Shown one piece after another: positions 13,001 to 57,103 of a stretch of DNA of 64,000 nucleotides. Each line of letters begins with the position of its first letter. Positions within the stretch are counted from its first letter, which is position 1. The position numbers were made by a program, and so were the translations under genes. The notes below the pieces were generated by a model. The model was not told the DNA's origin. It saw only the letters and a program-made list of their open reading frames with translations, and ran no database searches. The stretch is from Salinarchaeum sp. IM2453 (GTDB lineage Archaea; Halobacteriota; Halobacteria; Halobacteriales; Salinarchaeaceae), in the NCBI RefSeq assembly GCF_019693215.1, contig NZ_CP081183.1, positions 561,226-625,225 on the forward strand, given 5' to 3'.

Positions 13001-13694
13001 CGGGGCCGTGTCGAAGGTTTGGCGTCTCAAGAAGAAACGCTCTGAGCTCAGAAATACAGGACATCAACTTACTGTTGTCATTGTAGTACCGATTCTATTA
13101 ATTGTTTCCACAATATTTCGCAAAATCCAGGTTCGATATTAGATAGCCCGTTGCATGTGCAAAATTAGCTGATAGTTAGTGCCCGTGTATGGGCATTATT
13201 AGCCAACTCTGTTTAAAGGAACCTGCAACATTATCTGGTTTTTGGCCCTAGTTTCGAAAGCGTGCAACGTGCTATTAGAGTATTAATAGTATAATGAGCC
13301 TGTTCAACGTACCATAGATTCAATAAGTTCTGCAACTCTATCAGATGATTGATTGTCTCTGTGCTTATGGATTACTTCACACCTCTCTTGACGCTTATCT
13401 TCATACGGATCATTTTTGATTGCTGACTCGACCTCGTTTAAAAAATCTTTTTGTGAATCAACAGCAGGTCCGGGTATAGTATCGAAGTAATCATACAGAA
13501 GTCCTTTCTCTGTTTTATACTCGTCATAATCATACGGGATAAAAATCATTGGACGGTCAACTAACATAAAATCCTTATATATTGACGAGTAGTCCGTTAC
13601 CAAGATATCTGTTATTGCTAATAATTCATTGACATCTTCATACTTATCCGCAGAGGCTATCTTTATATTATTAGATTTGTTCTCTAAGCTGTTA

Positions 13695-14763
13695 GGCGGT
13701 GGTGCAGAATGGTTCTCATAGCATGATGTTGGGGCTGGCGACATCGTTTCCTCGATGGTGATTAGCGAGCGCAACGGCCAACCGAAGACACAGAACCAGA
13801 AAAACGTGTGCTTTGACCCTCACTCGGCCTCGGACCCGCGAGGTCCCGAGGCCGAGATCCTTGCAGACACCAATCGCTGTTTCCACCCGTGAGCGTTGAT
13901 CATACGTCTTATCGAGCTGTTTCTGCCAGAGACGAACTGTGTCGCTGTGCCGTTTGATCTGGTCTTCGACGCGATACTCAATCTCTAGCGGGTCGTCCGT
14001 ATTGCGTGGATTGTACGGTGCAACCGGTACGACCGCCTGCGCCAGCAGGTAGTCGTGCCACTCCAGCATATCGAACTCTGAATCACCGACCATCCATCGA
14101 GGGATTTCGACGGCGAGCGCGTCACGCGTGACGCGCATCGCCGTCTCCTGATCGACTTTCTTTGCTGGAGTGAACGCTGCTGCGACCGGAATGTTGTTTG
14201 CCGCGGTCACGACACAACAGCCGTAACCGTAGTAGTACTCGTCTTCGCTGTGGTCATAGTTCCAGCTAGCGTCATCATCACGCTGATCGACGGGAATGTC
14301 GGTACCATCGATGCGGAAGAGCTTGCCGAACGGGACCTGCTCGGCAAGCTCATGCACCAATTTGATGAAGATGTCTTCTGCGACGAGAGCGAAATCAGTG
14401 ATAAACCGTGAGAGCGTCCACCGGGACGGTGGGCGCTCGAATCCACATTGCCGCCACACATCTTCATTCCGGAGTTCTCGCGCCATTGGTCGGAGCCCGT
14501 AGATGTCGTTGTAGAAGCAGTGAAGGACACCTTTCAGCAACTCTGGGGGCTCGTGGACCCGTGTTCGCCCCCTCGAATCAGGGGCGAACACGGGAAGGTC
14601 CTTGAGAAAGGAGAGATCAAGGTGTTCGAACAGCGCTGTCGTCTCCGTCTCCAGTGCTTTGAAAACCTGTTCGACCGTATCGTTACTCGGTAGGACGGAC
14701 TTGCTGCTGGACACATCAATTTCGTCCTACCGCTTTCCTTGTGAAGACTTCTGCACCACCGCC
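13695..14763 (-). mobile_element. IS5-type element copy 1, inserted in the TagF-like gene
   Basis: About 1.07 kb with terminal inverted repeats GGCGGTGGTGCAGAA at 13695 and its complement ending at 14763. The flanks repeat TAAGCTGTTA (13685-13694 and 14764-14773), the target duplication. It carries an apparently intact transposase. Confidence 0.88.
13716..14714 (-). CDS. IS5-family DDE transposase (intact copy)
   Basis: A 332-residue transposase with no visible lesion. The DDE elements are FRIDGTDIPVDQRDDD (first Asp), RWMVGDSEFDMLEW (second Asp) and QRSRVETAIGVCKDLGLG (Glu). The N-terminal region GLRPMARELRNEDVWRQCGF and RWTLSRFITDF is the HTH-like part of IS5/ISH1-type enzymes. A decayed copy lies at 15683-16633 and a fragment at 28645-28757, so this may be the source of transposition for all three. 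Confidence 0.88.
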   Translation of the reverse strand: MSSSKSVLPSNDTVEQVFKALETETTALFEHLDLSFLKDLPVFAPDSRGRTRVHEPPELLKGVLHCFYNDIYGLRPMARELRNEDVWRQCGFERPPSRWTLSRFITDFALVAEDIFIKLVHELAEQVPFGKLFRIDGTDIPVDQRDDDASWNYDHSEDEYYYGYGCCVVTAANNIPVAAAFTPAKKVDQETAMRVTRDALAVEIPRWMVGDSEFDMLEWHDYLLAQAVVPVAPYNPRNTDDPLEIEYRVEDQIKRHSDTVRLWQKQLDKTYDQRSRVETAIGVCKDLGLGTSRVRGRVRVKAHVFLVLCLRLAVALANHHRGNDVASPNIML

Positions 14764-15661
14764 TAAGCTGTTAAGGAAATGTCTCAATGATTCATATTCA
14801 TCACCGACATGTGTACCCCTCGTAACATCCGGGTGAGGGCGTATAAGAAGTAAAATATCGTGTTCTTCTAGTTTTTGAAAAAGCTTCTGTGGGTTGAAAT
14901 CCTCAAATGGAAAGAACTTCATCTCTAAACTTTCTGTTTTTCTATGAGTTGGAGCATACATAACAATATGAGAGTAATTATTGGCGAAATCTATCTCAGG
15001 GTTTGAAAATATTTTGTCATTTCTCGGGTAGCCGGTTATAGCAAAATCATCCTCTGATAAAGGTCGGGTTTTCAATCTTTGGTTGATTTGGAATTCTGAA
15101 GTTGTTAGAACATATTCAACCTGCTCATTCCGCTTTTTCTTGTGTGTTCTTTTATCTGGGTTCGCTTCGGGGTCCCCTTTTATTGGATTCCCGTGCTGAC
15201 AGTAGATTAGATTAAGCGACGACGGTATTCCCATCCTCCCTGTGGGAGAAAGATCACTTGTTTGGTGAGTAAATAAACCTATATTTGCTCGAAAAAGAGT
15301 TTGTAAGCTGCGGATCGAGTTCATGTGAACCACTGGTTTGTTTTCGTTCTTCAGTCTATCATAAACCTGCGAGCTTCTGGTTATCCAAATAGGAGTTAAT
15401 TCATAATCGTTATCCAATATATGTTCATAGACTGCTTGAGGATTACCGCGATAACTTTCTCCCCTGTGCGCTCCAAAAATAACTAAGTCGGGGCGATTTG
15501 GAACTACCCCACCGACATAACGTATTATATATCTGTTAACTTTTTGGGCCAAATACTTCAAACTTTTTTGTGCAAATACTAGTAATCCCTCTTTGCGAAT
15601 AATTTCCTTTGACCTTTTGAGCATATCCATTGCCATGTTGCGCATTGCTTTGTTTATACGT

Positions 15662-16681
15662 GGCGGTGGTGCAGAACTGTTCTCATAGCGTGATGGTTGG
15701 ACTGGCAACATCGTTTCCCCGATGGTGATTGGCGAGTGCGACGGCCAATCGGAGGCAGAGAGCGATGAAGACGTGTACTTTTACGCGTACTCGGCCTCGG
15801 ACCCGCCGGGTCCCGAGGCCGAGATCCTTACAGACACCAATCGCTGTTTCAACCCGTGAGCGTTCTGCATACGTCTCATCGAGTTGGTGCTGCCAGAGAC
15901 GAACGGTGTCGCTGTGTTCTTTGATTCGCTCTTCGACGCGGTATTCTATGTCTGGTGGATCGTCCGTATTCCGTGGGTTGTACGGCGATATCGGCACGAC
16001 TGACTGCTCCAGCAGCCAGTCGTGCCACCCCAGCATATCGAACTCTGAGTCACCGAGGAACCAGCGTGGGGTATCGACCTTCTTAGCTGGAGTGAACGCT
16101 GCTGCGACCGGTATATTGTGTGCTGCGGTGACGACACAGCAGCCGTAGCCGTAGTAGTCGTCTTCTGCGTGATCGTAGTTCCAGTCAGCGTCCTCGTCAC
16201 GCTGATCAACCGGAAGATTTGTCCCATCGATGCGAAAGAGCTTGCCGAGCGGCACCTGCTCGACAAGTTCGTGAACTAACTCGATGAATACGTCTTCAGC
16301 GACGAGTGCGAAGTCAGTGATGAACCGTGAGAGTGTCCGCCGGGACGGCGGACTCTCAAAGCCACACTGTCGCCAGACATCCTCGTTGCGGAGTTCCCGC
16401 GCCATTGGACGAGGACCGTAGATATCATGTTAAAAGCAGTGGAGGACACCTTTCAGGAGTTCTGGTGGCTCGTGAACCCGTGTTCGCCCCCGATCCAAGG
16501 GGGCGAACACGGGATAGTCGGTGAGGAACGACAAATCGAGGTGTTCGAACAGCGCAGTTGTCTCAGTCTCCAGTGTTTTGAAGACCTGTTCGACCGTATC
16601 GTTATCCGGTAGGACGGACTTGGTGCTGGACACATCAAATTCGTCCTACCGCTTCCTTGTGAGGACTTCTGCCCCACCGCC
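15662..16681 (-). mobile_element. IS5-type element copy 2, decayed
   Basis: About 1.02 kb bounded by the same GGCGGTGGTGCAGAA-type inverted repeats as copy 1 and by an 8-bp direct repeat TTATACGT (15654-15661 and 16682-16689). It sits immediately upstream of the TagF-like gene start. Confidence 0.85.
15683..16633 (-). pseudogene. IS5-family transposase, nonsense and deletion
   Basis: It aligns along its length with the intact copy at 13716-14714 but has two lesions. A TAA replaces a Tyr codon after GVLHCF (about 16427-16429), and roughly 15 codons are missing in frame between AAFTPAKKVD and PRWFLGDSEF. The DDE residues remain readable. The divergence from copy 1 shows it is the older insertion. 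Confidence 0.85.
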
Positions 16682-28799: not shown

Positions 28800-30180
28800 A
28801 TAGCAGCATCTGGATAAAGCAGTGAACCGCCTCGGGGTCAAGCCCCGAGGCTTCCCGTTTCAATGACGCGACTTGCAGGAACCGATGAAGACCGGCCTCC
28901 ATCGGTTTCCACAGCGGTCGCAGTCTCCACGGGCGTGACTTTGGCGTGTCCCTTACCTAGTTGTTCAAGACCGCGAGAAAGAACATTGTACGACGCATTC
29001 GCATCTCTGTCCACCTTGAACCCACAACTCGGGCAACTGTGTTCTCGTACCCACAACGGTTTCTCCGTTTTAACGCCACACTCAGCGCACTCTTTGGTTG
29101 TTCCTGCAGGGTCTACTTGCACGACGTGCGTGCCGTACAAGTCGCCCTTGTACTCCAGCATCTCGATGAACCCACGCCACGCAGCGTCCTGCTTGTTCCG
29201 CGCATTCCCGCGCTGTTGAAGCATTCCCGAGGCGTCCAGATCTTCAACGAACACGGCGTCGTACGTCCTGACGAGCCACATGGAGAGCTTGTGCTGGAAG
29301 TCTTCGACCTTTCGCTTGATTCGACGCTTACCTTTGGCGACCTCCCGGCGTTGGTTCGCCCAGTTGTTGCTCCCGTGTTCCTTGCGAGAGAGACTGCGCT
29401 GTTCTCGGCGCAAGCGGTCGTACTCGTCGGAGAGGTCGAGCCAGTCCACGCTGTCTCCATCGCTCGTATATATGTAGTTCTGGATTCCAAGGTCAACGCC
29501 AACGCAATCTTCCACGTCTAGGTCATCTACGTCGGGTTTCTCGGGGAGAGCGGTGTCTTCAACTTCGAGGCCGAACGTGACGTACCACTCACCCGTTGTC
29601 TCTTTTTTCAGCGTCACCTCTTTGATGTCTGCGTTGTCGGGAAGGGATCGGTGGTAGCGGATTGGGATGTCACCGATTTTCGAGAGCCAGAGCGTGGCAG
29701 TCTGGCCACTCGTGTTTTTGAGTTCGAAACCGGACTGCGAGTATGTCATGCTCTGGTACTCTCGCGGTGATTTCCACTGAAGTTCACCGACCTTGTATCC
29801 CTGCTCTTTTTTGTCTGAGAGGCTGCTGAGGTTGTTGTAGAAGCGTTCGACGGTTTTCTGCAACGCCTTCGAGTGGACTTCTTTAAAGACGGGCCATTCG
29901 TCTTTCCACTCGGTGAGACGTTTTTGGTGTTGGTACGCGGAACCGATGTTGTCTTCGTCGGTGTCGAGGGTGTTGTATTCGTAGCGGGTGTGGTTGTAGG
30001 CTTGGCGGTGAATGTCGATGTGGCGTTCCGCTTCCGCAGTTATACCTGTTCGGTTAGGATAGGCGCGGAAACGGTAATCGTACCACATCGTTGTACCGTG
30101 ATTATTGGTATGTTTCGACTTAATCGTTTGGTTCACGAGCTGTCGGCTTCATCCACAGGGTCAAGCCCCATGACATTCGC
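28800..30180 (-). mobile_element. IS1341-type (TnpB-only) element
   Basis: It carries tnpB but no tnpA. The right end is the hairpin CCTCGGGGTCAAGCCCCGAGG (28831-28851), which overlaps the tnpB stop. The left end is the CATCCACAGGGTCAAGCCCC hairpin near 30150-30170 followed by TTCGCC. The overlap of gene 3' end and right end is where the guide-like omegaRNA of TnpB elements is encoded. Exact ends are approximate. Confidence 0.7.
28838..30088 (-). CDS. tnpB: RNA-guided nuclease TnpB
   Basis: About 416 residues from the ATG at 30088 (WYDYRFRAYPNRTG, the usual TnpB N-terminus); an earlier start at 30136 is possible. The RuvC-like residues are in VGVDLGIQNYIY (Asp), AVFVEDLDASGML (Glu) and DRDANASYNVLSRG (Asp). 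The zinc ribbon is KECAECGVKTEK, then HSCPSCGFKVDRD. TnpB cleaves DNA guided by an RNA from the element's right end and promotes element retention. The reading frame looks intact. Confidence 0.9.
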   Translation of the reverse strand: MWYDYRFRAYPNRTGITAEAERHIDIHRQAYNHTRYEYNTLDTDEDNIGSAYQHQKRLTEWKDEWPVFKEVHSKALQKTVERFYNNLSSLSDKKEQGYKVGELQWKSPREYQSMTYSQSGFELKNTSGQTATLWLSKIGDIPIRYHRSLPDNADIKEVTLKKETTGEWYVTFGLEVEDTALPEKPDVDDLDVEDCVGVDLGIQNYIYTSDGDSVDWLDLSDEYDRLRREQRSLSRKEHGSNNWANQRREVAKGKRRIKRKVEDFQHKLSMWLVRTYDAVFVEDLDASGMLQQRGNARNKQDAAWRGFIEMLEYKGDLYGTHVVQVDPAGTTKECAECGVKTEKPLWVREHSCPSCGFKVDRDANASYNVLSRGLEQLGKGHAKVTPVETATAVETDGGRSSSVPASRVIETGSLGA

Positions 30181-52450: not shown

Positions 52451-53602
52451 TTAGCCCCGTGTAACGCGTGTTTCTGATCCAATCTGTCCAGCAAGCGATA
52501 CGCCATGATCGACTGATGTATCATCACCAAGCAATGTCCCGGGTTCAAGCAGGACATTCCCACCAATCGAGGCATTGTCACCAACAACGCCGCCACAGGT
52601 CACAGCATCATGGACAACACCATCGATGGGCATTGCCGTCTCGCCGCCAGGAGCGGTTGTGTTTGGACCGACGGTGACGTTTGCAGCAATGACACAGTCC
52701 CGGAGGACAGCACCATCCTCGATTGTTGTATCCTGCATGATGACGCTGTTGCCAACGACGGCATTTGCACCAATCGAGACGTTTGGGCCAATCGTGGTAT
52801 CGGATCGGATGACCGCGTTCGGGCCGATATACGCATCCGGATGGATATGTACTTGATCGGCAACCACTGCCGTCTCATGAATTATGCCCGCAGTTGATCC
52901 ACCGTGTTGATCTAGCACCTGTCCGTTGACACGGGGAAGATCCCAGACCTGTGAAACGTCTGCCCACATGCCATCGTATCGGACAATCTCGACCTCGTTG
53001 TCATCAGCAAATGTGCTAAGCGCCCGTGAAAGCTGGATTTCACTGTCTGGTCCGGGCCCAGTTTGCTGAATGGCATTGAAGATATCACGTGGTAGTCGAT
53101 AGATGCCGGCATTAATGATTTCTGAGGCCGGACGACCGACAGGTTTCTCCTCAATCGTTGCAAGTTGTGTGCCGGTTCGCTTGAGCACACCGTATTCGCG
53201 TGGTGTTTCAACACGGGTTGCAGCAACGGCGGCATCGCCGCCTGCGTTCATAACCTCAGTTACAATCTCGGGAGAGATAATGCGATCTCCGTTAAGTACA
53301 AGGAAGTCACCGTTCAGTTCTGTACGGGCTTGCTGAAGGGCATGCCCTGTACCGAGCTGGTCTTCTTGGAACACATAGGAGATATCGACATCCCAGTCAT
53401 CGCCATCGCCAAAGTGGGTCTGGATCCGATTACGCTTGTGTCCGACCACAAGCACAATGTCAGTAACCCCTGCATCGGCGACGGCCTCAATCACATATTC
53501 AAGGATCGGGCGATTTGCGACCGGCAGCATCGGCTTTGGACGACGTGTTGTCAGCGGCCACAGACGCTGTCCCTCACCGGCGGCAAGGATAACGGCCTTC
53601 AT
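52451..53602 (-). CDS. glmU: Bifunctional sugar-1-phosphate nucleotidylyltransferase/acetyltransferase, GlmU-like
   Basis: A 383-residue enzyme. The N-terminal half is the nucleotidyltransferase: VILAAGEGQRLWPLTTRRPK, FLVLNGDRIISPEI and ATIEEKPVGRPASE. The C-terminal half is a left-handed beta-helix (VHIHPDAYIGPNAVIRSD, GPNVSIGANAVVGNSV). This layout is the archaeal GlmU type, which acetylates glucosamine-1-phosphate and adds UMP to give UDP-GlcNAc. The tight link to glmS supports it. The upstream side is the long gene-free repeat region, which must contain the promoter. Confidence 0.9.
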   Translation of the reverse strand: MKAVILAAGEGQRLWPLTTRRPKPMLPVANRPILEYVIEAVADAGVTDIVLVVGHKRNRIQTHFGDGDDWDVDISYVFQEDQLGTGHALQQARTELNGDFLVLNGDRIISPEIVTEVMNAGGDAAVAATRVETPREYGVLKRTGTQLATIEEKPVGRPASEIINAGIYRLPRDIFNAIQQTGPGPDSEIQLSRALSTFADDNEVEIVRYDGMWADVSQVWDLPRVNGQVLDQHGGSTAGIIHETAVVADQVHIHPDAYIGPNAVIRSDTTIGPNVSIGANAVVGNSVIMQDTTIEDGAVLRDCVIAANVTVGPNTTAPGGETAMPIDGVVHDAVTCGGVVGDNASIGGNVLLEPGTLLGDDTSVDHGVSLAGQIGSETRVTRG

Positions 53603-53797: not shown

Positions 53798-55082
53798 ACC
53801 CCACCATGTCGAGTGTTTTCTCTATTTTAACTCTTACAGGCTACATCCCCGTCCTCAAAGAGCGATCAACGGGAGCGAGTAGGGCGGGGTAAGTTCACCT
53901 GCGATAGATGGTCCTGTCGCACACCCCCCACCATGTCGAATGTTCATAGTACAGAACCAGTGAGTATACGTTGGACTTTTCCCACCCCACTGTGTCGAAT
54001 GTTTATGCTGAATTTGGATGGTTTTGGTAGTAGCTTCTATGCCGGTTGTTGGTAATACAATTTTGTTATTCAGCCGCACCGCTGTATTTTTCTCGCCCGA
54101 TTCATCCTCATTTTAGTGTTCTGTTGGTGGCCAGTTAGTCGTTACTTCTCTGATTCCTGATACTGCTCGCCGAGGGGCTTCAGCCGCGGGTTTCCGAAGC
54201 CGTATCGGGAGTGAGACCCAATTCGTTGGAGGCTATTCTCGACCGGACGGTCGCCGAGGGACTTCACAACCTGCAAAGACGGCGGGTATGCGACGGCGAG
54301 CGAGCTGATCTGAAGGCCAACTTGACTGTCTTCTTATGTGTGTACGGACGACGATATTCCTCTTGCTCTGAGCCCTTCTGATACTGACCAAGGCTTGGAA
54401 GCACTACTGAATAGAATAAGCGTTTTTTCGACTACTGATACAGGTATCATAGTATATTATAAGGACCCCCCACCATGTCGAGTGTTCTTGTGACTGCACA
54501 GACTTCTCGTCCTCACACCCCCCACCGTGTCGAATGTTCTGGCTCTACAGAGAATTAGGCAGAGTGCCTCGGGGCCGTTTGGAAATCAGAGATTTCCATG
54601 ATGACGAGACGCTTTGCGTCTCGAACCACTTGCCCCCGAGGGTGAATGCCGTCGAAATATTATACAAATTTAAGGTGTTCGATCTATAATACACTGACAA
54701 CGGCCAGAAAACGACCTCTCAAAGTATGGAGTTGAAGACCTCAATTCCTTCGCTGGCCGTTGGATTGGAAATGCGACTCCTCTCAAAACCGTCCATTGGG
54801 CGTGAGACGGGAGTTGTCGGGTGGTGGTGGAGCCGCCGACTCCCACGGACACATCGGTGTGTTCGGGTGTGAATTCCAGCCGACTCCTCACGGAGAAGGT
54901 CGGGAGGAATTGAATTCACCTGCGGGTGCAGTGTGGTCCCAAGACGGTGAAGCCTCGGGGCTTGACCCCGAGGTACTTCACTAAATACACAAAGGAACAT
55001 TCGACACAGTGGGGTGAGGGAAGGTGGGATGATAATTCTGGTCTCTGCCAGATACACAAAAGAACACTCGACACGGTGGGGT
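53798..55082. repeat. Array of seven CCCACC-TGTCGA-TGTTC motifs in a 2-kb gene-free region
   Basis: The consensus CCCACCATGTCGAGTGTTCT (positions 7 and 13 of it vary A/G) occurs forward at 53798, 53923, 53984, 54466 and 54518 and reversed at 54994 and 55060, with only one to three changes per copy. The last two forward and the two reversed copies flank a palindrome-ended element symmetrically. The spacing is irregular and no CRISPR is formed. The whole stretch 53603-55606 has no supported gene. A 50-codon open remnant on the minus strand near 54155-54295 (VKSLGDRPVENSLQRIGSHS) is protein-like but unidentified. Confidence 0.8.
54549..54985 (+). mobile_element. Palindrome-ended element (PATE-like), copy A
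   Basis: About 440 bases. One end holds the hairpin GCCTCGGGGCTTGACCCCGA (from 54954), identical in type to the right end of the TnpB element at 28.8 kb. The interior has the hairpins GGAAATCAGAGATTTCC (about 54580) and GAGACGCTTTGCGTCTC (about 54605). The whole is an inverted homologue of 57600-58045. No intact tnpB is inside. Confidence 0.6.
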
Positions 55083-55676
55083 GGGGCATCAGCAATTAAC
55101 CTCCTCCACACAATTGAAGTCAGAGGGTTCCTCCGTGAGTAATCCAACCAGATCGATTCCCCCGACTATGAACTTGTGGGTTTGCTGATGTACCTTCGGC
55201 CCTCGAATGAGGGTGTAGCATGTCAAATTCATGTATTCGCTCGGTGTTGCCTTCCCTCTCGGGAGTGGCACTCACGGGCGTCCAGCATCGTGAGCAGCAG
55301 CCCGGGCCATCGGACTCACCCACATTGCAGCTGCCACAGGGAGTGATAAAGAGACATGCAAACCGCTGGTGGTTTGACTGCGAAAGTGTGTGAGTGTTGT
55401 GAGTTGTAGTGGTGAGACGCACTCGTGTCCGTGTTAAGCGGGAGCACGTTCCCCGCAGCAGCATGTCGCACGTCTACCGAGATATACCATTTCGGATAAC
55501 ATGAACAATGGGCCTACAGACAGATGAATCACATTGGTTGTTATCCAATTATAATAGGAAATTTTTCAATCAACGAATTCCATATCACAATAACTCCCAC
55601 ATATAAATGATCTTCACCGTCGCCACACTGCTGTTCTTTGTTGCGTTGCTTTTCTTCATAATGGTTGACAGAGGTG

Positions 55677-57103
55677 CATTCGTTCTAGTTTAGGCAGCGA
55701 ACCAGCAGACGTGGCTACGGAAATCGCTGAAGCTACATGAGTAAGGAACCCGGTAGGAGATATGACCTACTCTCCACCGGATTCGGTAGTAGTTGAGCGA
55801 ATCAAAAGAGCGTTTCCCTCCGATGAATTGCGCGACCGCGGTCGCGCAATGACAGAACGTGACCGGAAATTCGACTTCGTCGCACTGTTCTACACACTCT
55901 CGTTTGGATTTGCTGCTGGGTCAGATCGGTCTCTTCAGGCGTTTCTTGAACGCTACGTGGAGATGGCTGACTGTGATTCTCTCTCATATCCCTCCTTCTA
56001 CGAGTGGTTCTCACCAGCGTTCGTTGCACTCCTTCGAGAGATCCTCGATGACGCTATCGAGGATCTCGACCCCGGCAGAAACGACTTGAGAGGGCGTCTC
56101 GAACACTTTCGAGACGTTCTCATCGTTGACGCAACATTCATCTCACTCTACCAAGACGCTAAAGATGTCTACAGAGCAACTGGTGATGACCAAGCTGGGC
56201 TGAAGTTACACTTGACCGAGTCGCTTTCGACCGGCCTTCCAACCCGGTTTCGAACCACCGATGGAGCGACCCATGAACGGAGTCAGCTACCCACCGGCGA
56301 GTGGGTAGCTGACGCCCTCATCCTGTTCGATCTCGGGTTCTACGATTTCTGGCTGTTCGACCGTATAGACGCCAATGACGGGTGGTTTGTCTCCCGCGTC
56401 AAGTCCAATGCTAACCCGAAGGTCGTCGAAGAGTTACGAACATGGCGGGGCAACAGTATCACGCTGGAAGGGAAGTCGCTGAAGGGCGTCCTCGACGACC
56501 TTCAGCGACAGGAGATCGACGTTCTCGTGGAATTGGAGTTCGACCGCAAACGTGGTTCTTCAGCCACTGCAACACGTCAGTTCAGATTGGTTGGGCTGCT
56601 CAACGAAGACGAAGACGAGTACCATCTCTACTTCACGAATCTACCGCGTAACGAGTACTCCGCGCCCGATATCGCGCAACTCTATCGGGCGCGGTGGGAA
56701 GTAGAGCTACTGTTCAAAGAGCTGAAATCGCGGTTTGGACTCGATGAGATCAACACGACTAAACCTTACATCATCGAGGCATTGGTGATCATGGCGGCGA
56801 TTTCGCTGATGATCAGCCGCGAGATTGTCGATGAACTCCACAAGCTGGACGCGAAACGACGTGAGGCCGCGGACGCCGACGAGTCGGCGTCGCGGCTTCC
56901 TCCTCGTCGTGGTTCACTGGCGGTTGAGCGACATTCCCATCTGATTCAGTTGTACTTGATGCTTGAGCTGGGCTACGAACTGCCAGATCTGGACGAATTA
57001 TTGTTGTGGGCGTCGCAGAATCCAAATCCACACAGGGAACGGTTACGCAGAGAGGTTGAATCGGGTGAGTTCGCCTTTGACCGCGACTAAACTAGAACGA
57101 ATG
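55677..57103 (+). mobile_element. ISH8-type (IS4 family) insertion sequence, complete
   Basis: 1427 bp with perfect 16-bp terminal inverted repeats, CATTCGTTCTAGTTTA at 55677-55692 and its complement at 57088-57103. It is flanked by a perfect 10-bp target duplication GACAGAGGTG (55667-55676 and 57104-57113). The single transposase gene is intact, so the element may still be active. Confidence 0.95.
55762..57090 (+). CDS. IS4-family (ISH8-type) transposase
   Basis: A 442-residue DDE transposase with no lesion. DVLIVDATFISLYQD holds the first Asp, ALILFDLGFYDFWLFDRI the second, and QLYRARWEVELLFKELKSRF is the Y-(2)-R-(3)-E-(6)-K signature of IS4. The stop codon lies within the right inverted repeat. 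Length and motif order match ISH8-group enzymes of haloarchaea. Confidence 0.95.
   Translation: MTYSPPDSVVVERIKRAFPSDELRDRGRAMTERDRKFDFVALFYTLSFGFAAGSDRSLQAFLERYVEMADCDSLSYPSFYEWFSPAFVALLREILDDAIEDLDPGRNDLRGRLEHFRDVLIVDATFISLYQDAKDVYRATGDDQAGLKLHLTESLSTGLPTRFRTTDGATHERSQLPTGEWVADALILFDLGFYDFWLFDRIDANDGWFVSRVKSNANPKVVEELRTWRGNSITLEGKSLKGVLDDLQRQEIDVLVELEFDRKRGSSATATRQFRLVGLLNEDEDEYHLYFTNLPRNEYSAPDIAQLYRARWEVELLFKELKSRFGLDEINTTKPYIIEALVIMAAISLMISREIVDELHKLDAKRREAADADESASRLPPRRGSLAVERHSHLIQLYLMLELGYELPDLDELLLWASQNPNPHRERLRREVESGEFAFDRD

Follow-up and report, generated by a model that had tools for sequence, protein, structure and literature searches.

An orphan array of predicted origin recognition boxes in the genome of Salinarchaeum sp. 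IM2453

We asked what role seven copies of one motif, CCCCACYRTGTCGARTGTT, might play in a gene-free gap at about 615 kb of the single-contig genome of Salinarchaeum sp. IM2453. The window, by which we mean the whole stretch of 64,000 nucleotides that was analysed, corresponds to positions 561226-625225 of that genome. A preliminary description of the window, made from its sequence, had proposed an iteron-like replication or partition site, a regulator array for glmU or the ends of a family of non-autonomous elements, and each of these proposals is taken up below at the evidence that bears on it.

Arrangement of the motif copies and of the mobile elements among them

Exact matching placed the seven copies between 53799 and 55081, five of them forward (at 53799, 53926, 53985, 54468 and 54520) and two reverse (at about 54996 and 55063), as had been described (Table 1). 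Shuffled sequence (n = 100) gave a mean of 0.09 matches even when 3 mismatches were allowed, and 0 of 100 shuffles reached seven. Across the whole genome (2,656,678 bases), the window's seven were the only copies without a mismatch; the next-best sites were three in number, scattered, and at the level of background, with 3 mismatches each. Clustering thus held genome-wide, and the random scatter that the preliminary description had named as its refutation was not seen. The gap also proved to be gene-free, in that no ORF of at least 150 aa was found between 53639 and 55761.

Table 1. Features of the array and its surroundings (window coordinates)
Feature	Position	Strand	Sequence	Description
GlmU-like gene	52451..53602	-		Sugar nucleotidyltransferase; left neighbour of the array
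ORB1	53799..53818	+	CCCCACCATGTCGAGTGTTT	Motif match
Element D	53825..53901	.		Mobile-element terminus of ~75 bp in the ORB1-ORB2 spacer; ~40 relatives in the genome
ORB2	53926..53945	+	CCCCACCATGTCGAATGTTC	Motif match
ORB3	53985..54004	+	CCCCACTGTGTCGAATGTTT	Motif match
Element A	54044..54441	.		Multi-copy repeat of ~398 bp in the ORB3-ORB4 spacer
ORB4	54468..54487	+	CCCCACCATGTCGAGTGTTC	Motif match
ORB5	54520..54539	+	CCCCACCGTGTCGAATGTTC	Motif match
Element B	54543..54981	+		PATE-like, ~439 bp, TnpB/IS605-related; at least 14 copies in the genome
ORB6	about 54995..55014	-	CCCCACTGTGTCGAATGTTC	Motif match
ORB7	about 55062..55081	-	CCCCACCGTGTCGAGTGTTC	Motif match
Element C	55096..55518	.		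Multi-copy repeat of ~423 bp directly right of the array
A+T-rich stretch	55532..55612	.		Most A+T-rich of the gap, up to 72% over 80 bp; outside the arms
Transposase gene	55762..57090	+		DDE transposase (PF01609) of an insertion sequence

The copies, hereafter boxes, form two inverted arms, one of five plus-strand and one of two minus-strand boxes, with their G-string (CCCC) ends pointing outward. The inner four lie, as the preliminary description had noted, in nested inverted pairs round a palindrome-bearing element, which is element B. Once elements A and B are taken out, the boxes span 446 bp and the arms are 16 bp apart; with element D removed as well, they make up one array of ~370 bp. 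The DNA between the boxes had been called unconserved, and it is, but it consists mostly of several different multi-copy mobile elements. Element B has the features of a PATE, being short, multi-copy and without a transposase, and having an end in common with an IS605/TnpB element: over its final 38 nt it shares 89% identity with the terminus of the TnpB element at 28822-30136. We likened it by description, not by sequence, to the PATEs of Haloquadratum walsbyi, which are likewise short and lack a transposase and which carry a near-terminal palindrome and an IS605/TnpB-type end (PMC3119063). On the right of the gap, the sequence starting at 55677 recurs without change at three other places in the genome.

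A gap full of multi-copy mobile elements, with inner motif copies surrounding a palindrome-bearing one, would fit the proposal that the motif is itself the terminal repeat of a non-autonomous element family. Yet elements A to D are repeated many times in the genome and the motif occurs nowhere else in it; moreover, no element boundary falls within a motif copy, and the motif is missing from the flanks of the other element copies. The identity of the motif as an element end was rejected on the ground that other copies of the elements do not carry it, and we regard this proposal as having practically no chance of being correct. That the insertions avoid the boxes was considered as a hint of function, but by our own estimate three insertions would all do so by chance with a probability of ~0.24, and their number is too small for a conclusion. 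Elsewhere in the window, two reading frames at 13304-15711 resemble, on visual inspection, a single glycerophosphotransferase-like gene split in two, and a transposase-like ORF (13716-14714) separates them, which suggests that this gene was disrupted by an insertion sequence.

Relation of the motif to one Orc1/Cdc6 subfamily

An exact scan for the motif in 84,980 species, each represented by a single genome, gave 36 stretches. Haloarchaea accounted for 34 of these, among them Halorubrum, Haloarcula, Halobellus, Halovenus, Natronomonas, Halobacterium, Halonotius, Halopenitus and other genera, and the remaining 2 were single hits in bacterial bins. Most haloarchaeal stretches had an Orc1/Cdc6 reading frame that adjoined the copies or was flanked by them on both sides; in genome G024 (stretch L049), for instance, copies flanked a 407-aa Orc that passed the TIGR02928 cut-off. 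We named the Orc1/Cdc6 subfamily of this protein "X-type" and searched 394 genomes of the order for its members (E ≤ 1e-165 and at least 63% identity) and for the motif, allowing up to one mismatch and using the reversed pattern as a control. The motif was present in 53 of the 394 genomes, and the control had no match among the matches listed in this survey. X-type Orcs were found in 32 of the 394, all 32 of them motif-positive, and in 0 of the 341 genomes without the motif (Fisher's P value ~3e-33, which overstates independence because the genomes are related; 15 genera are involved). Boxes lay within 2.5 kb of the X-type orc on both sides in 30 of the 32 genomes and on one side in 1; in genome G075, the sole box was ~6 kb away. 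The CCCC end was directed away from orc in 146 of 155 nearby boxes, and the window array has the same orientation.

A maximum-likelihood tree grouped the motif-flanked Orcs in one cluster (89/98), from which the window genome's four full-length Orcs were separate. Sister Orcs (61-63% identity), encoded on pNG700 of Haloarcula marismortui and on a Halobaculum plasmid, had boxes with TGTCCGCTGTT in place of TGTCGAGTGTT. The flavour of the box tracks the Orc clade, and the main text of Wu et al. 2012 ties haloarchaeal ORBs in general to Orc clade (PMC3528665). The present flavour was not found written out there; the logos stand in the figures. With the genome's own oriC1 boxes, CCCCTTCGTTTCGACTGGAA, which adjoin the 1027-kb Orc, the motif had 12-13 of 20 positions in common in the same register (permutation P value ~0.0015, for the copy tested). 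The preliminary description had seen no match to the haloarchaeal ORB; it was right that the motif differs in detail from the oriC1 box, but this agreement in register had escaped it. The G-string is needed at oriC1 of Haloarcula hispanica (PMC3936714), and that of the motif appears to be of the same kind. These sequence comparisons identify the motif as a putative, divergent haloarchaeal origin recognition box (ORB) with a G-string, and the boxes would accordingly be of a known kind. The early guess of a replication or partition site was therefore right in kind as regards replication, with the motif predicted to be the ORB of one Orc1/Cdc6 subfamily. The correspondence of box and Orc in 32 of 32 genomes provides a searchable signature for one type of origin.

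Two further loci carried the same box. In Halobellus salinus (L097 4630-4985), nine direct copies of the same box follow one another at ~42-bp spacing, in iteron-like fashion, ~600 bp away from an Orc that shares only 46% identity with the X-type. On plasmid pR1SE2 of Halorubrum lacusprofundi (L226 2531-4305), an X-type Orc has the same boxes on both sides, so that the X-type origin is also plasmid-borne.

The position of the copies upstream of the glmU-like gene had suggested that they are operator sites for a regulator of glmU-glmS, or else a partition site. The DNA upstream of glmU in two genomes of the same family has no copy, however, and the linkage conserved across genera is with orc genes, which the arrays elsewhere accompany. 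Nothing else came to the support of a glmU regulator array, and we consider the operator or partition reading very improbable. In the same two genomes, the surroundings of glmU held neither boxes nor an Orc, and neither an X-type Orc nor the motif was found in either genome; the lineage of the window genome therefore probably acquired the origin horizontally. A viral origin of the motif was rejected, as a viral contig collection yielded no exact match.

The missing initiator and the present state of the array

A tblastn search of the window found no significant Orc similarity inside or beside the array and no decayed remnant, and no X-type Orc was found in the whole assembly. The Orc genes of the genome lie at 534 (truncated), 835, 1027, 1103 and 1110 kb, and none is X-type; the closest is the oriC1 Orc, which is 40% identical over part of the length. 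Because an adjacent cognate orc/cdc6 gene, the defining feature of an orc/cdc6-adjacent origin, is lacking, the locus is classed as an orphan array of ORBs rather than a complete origin.

We consider it likely that the array represents the ORBs of an X-type origin that has been left without its initiator and is at present dormant or a relic. By analogy, the Orc1/Cdc6 encoded between the arms of a complete X-type origin would bind to the boxes in the two arms, melt DNA in their vicinity and bring in the MCM helicase. Relatives have orc between the inverted arms, where element B now sits, and judging from them, an orc gene would once have lain at the array and been lost later. No marked A+T-rich stretch was found between the arms; the one to the right of element C is a possible candidate for the unwinding region. 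The array would not be expected to fire by itself because its cognate Orc is missing and because the tested origins of the relatives H. hispanica and H. mediterranei require their own adjacent cdc6 (PMC3936714, PMC4595724).

The consensus is still matched by each of the seven boxes, possibly a sign that they remain in use. Dating by element B (terminal branch 0.021, at most 2.5 expected box changes, P value ~0.08) sets an age bound that cannot separate a recent loss of the Orc from continued selection on the boxes. Dating by element A gave a P value of ~0.001, which is not trustworthy, the upper bound on age coming from only three copies.

The intactness of seven out of seven boxes would also suit a working origin, or a site that titrates Orc, served in trans by one of the genome's other Orcs or by an X-type Orc on a plasmid. 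There are precedents for both roles: in Natrinema sp. J7, a group of 7 ORBs that has no cdc6 supports replication when placed on a plasmid (PMC5350488), and in H. hispanica an ORB-rich region that is not itself active as an origin holds back oriC2, probably through titration of Cdc6E (PMC3936714). Plasmids, possibly with an X-type Orc, may in addition be absent from a single-contig assembly. On the other side, no Orc of the genome is close to the X-type, the dependence of tested origins on their own cdc6 argues against service by another, and no cumulative GC-skew minimum was found at ~615 kb in the 390 kb examined, a test that is weak in haloarchaea. On balance we judge use in trans to be unlikely, if well short of negligible, and a dormant or relic origin remains our preferred reading.

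Parallel arrays and known systems

Haloarchaeal origins are thought to travel and to be lost as origin-initiator pairs. The present locus and its parallels in other haloarchaea look like snapshots taken with the initiator gone and the boxes remaining. Halorubrum aidingense (L186) retains a 34-aa remnant of the Orc C terminus between the arms, and genome G183 (L184) has a TnpB gene and no Orc there, so that TnpB/IS605-type DNA lies between the arms in two lineages. Boxes without an Orc within the stretches examined were seen in Halopenitus persicus (L183) and archaeon SHRA6 (L185), and genome G079 (L188 5270-9663) has ~12 boxes in the same direction, several of them degenerate, with no Orc nearby. 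The orc gene is frameshifted in genome G331 (L190) and truncated in genome G135 (L189). For genomes G153, G183 and G188, the nearest Orcs are 54-57% identical and are encoded elsewhere in the genome. The search for orphan arrays required near-perfect boxes and so favours recent cases.

Several known systems resemble the array in part. The orc/cdc6-adjacent origins, as the main text of Wu et al. 2012 presents them, likewise have several ORBs, inverted arms, a G-string and clade-linked boxes, with ORBs on both sides of orc described for several origins; the window array differs from them in that orc is absent and the spacers hold mobile elements (PMC3528665). The predicted oriC3 and oriC10 of Natrinema sp. 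J7 are ORB clusters (7 ORBs in oriC10) without an adjacent cdc6, and plasmid replication was demonstrated for oriC10; the likeness to the window array is one of layout, not of ORB sequence (PMC5350488). The Haloarcula origins oriC3-cdc6D, oriC4-cdc6G and oriC5-cdc6H have been acquired, lost and disrupted in variable regions of the chromosome, in one instance by a transposase insertion, but the disrupted ones keep a cdc6 and are nonfunctional, whereas in the window the gene is gone and the boxes remain (PMC4441112). The H. hispanica oriC2D is also an ORB cluster that is not necessarily an origin; it lies downstream of and beside its cognate cdc6E, which it restrains, whereas the window array has no cognate Orc (PMC3936714).

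Orphan arrays amount to a natural experiment on the use in trans of boxes by themselves. We think it doubtful that they have been kept in several haloarchaeal lineages because they still function, be it as origins that non-cognate Orc proteins fire in trans or as regulatory sites bound by Orc; if they have, they would go against the rule whereby every haloarchaeal origin relies on the Cdc6 next to it. The locus is mostly explained, and it leaves a testable question, namely, the fate of an origin after loss of its initiator.

Two other sites in the genome (G000) are recorded here. A repeat array at about 1102311-1103154 (L056 3312-4155) is CRISPR-like, with ~74-bp spacing, at least 11 units and a repeat containing GTCCCAGCACAAAGTAAATTCAACAGAAATTGAAAC; it lies directly upstream of a divergent Orc1-like gene at 1103 kb, and a second such gene follows 6.5 kb on. 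At ~538.6 kb (L055 11579-11735), three ORB-like copies of another flavour (e.g., CCCCACTGTTTCAACTG) lie ~4 kb from the truncated Orc gene at about 534 kb (L055 6969-7796), and the two together are perhaps another decayed origin in the same genome.
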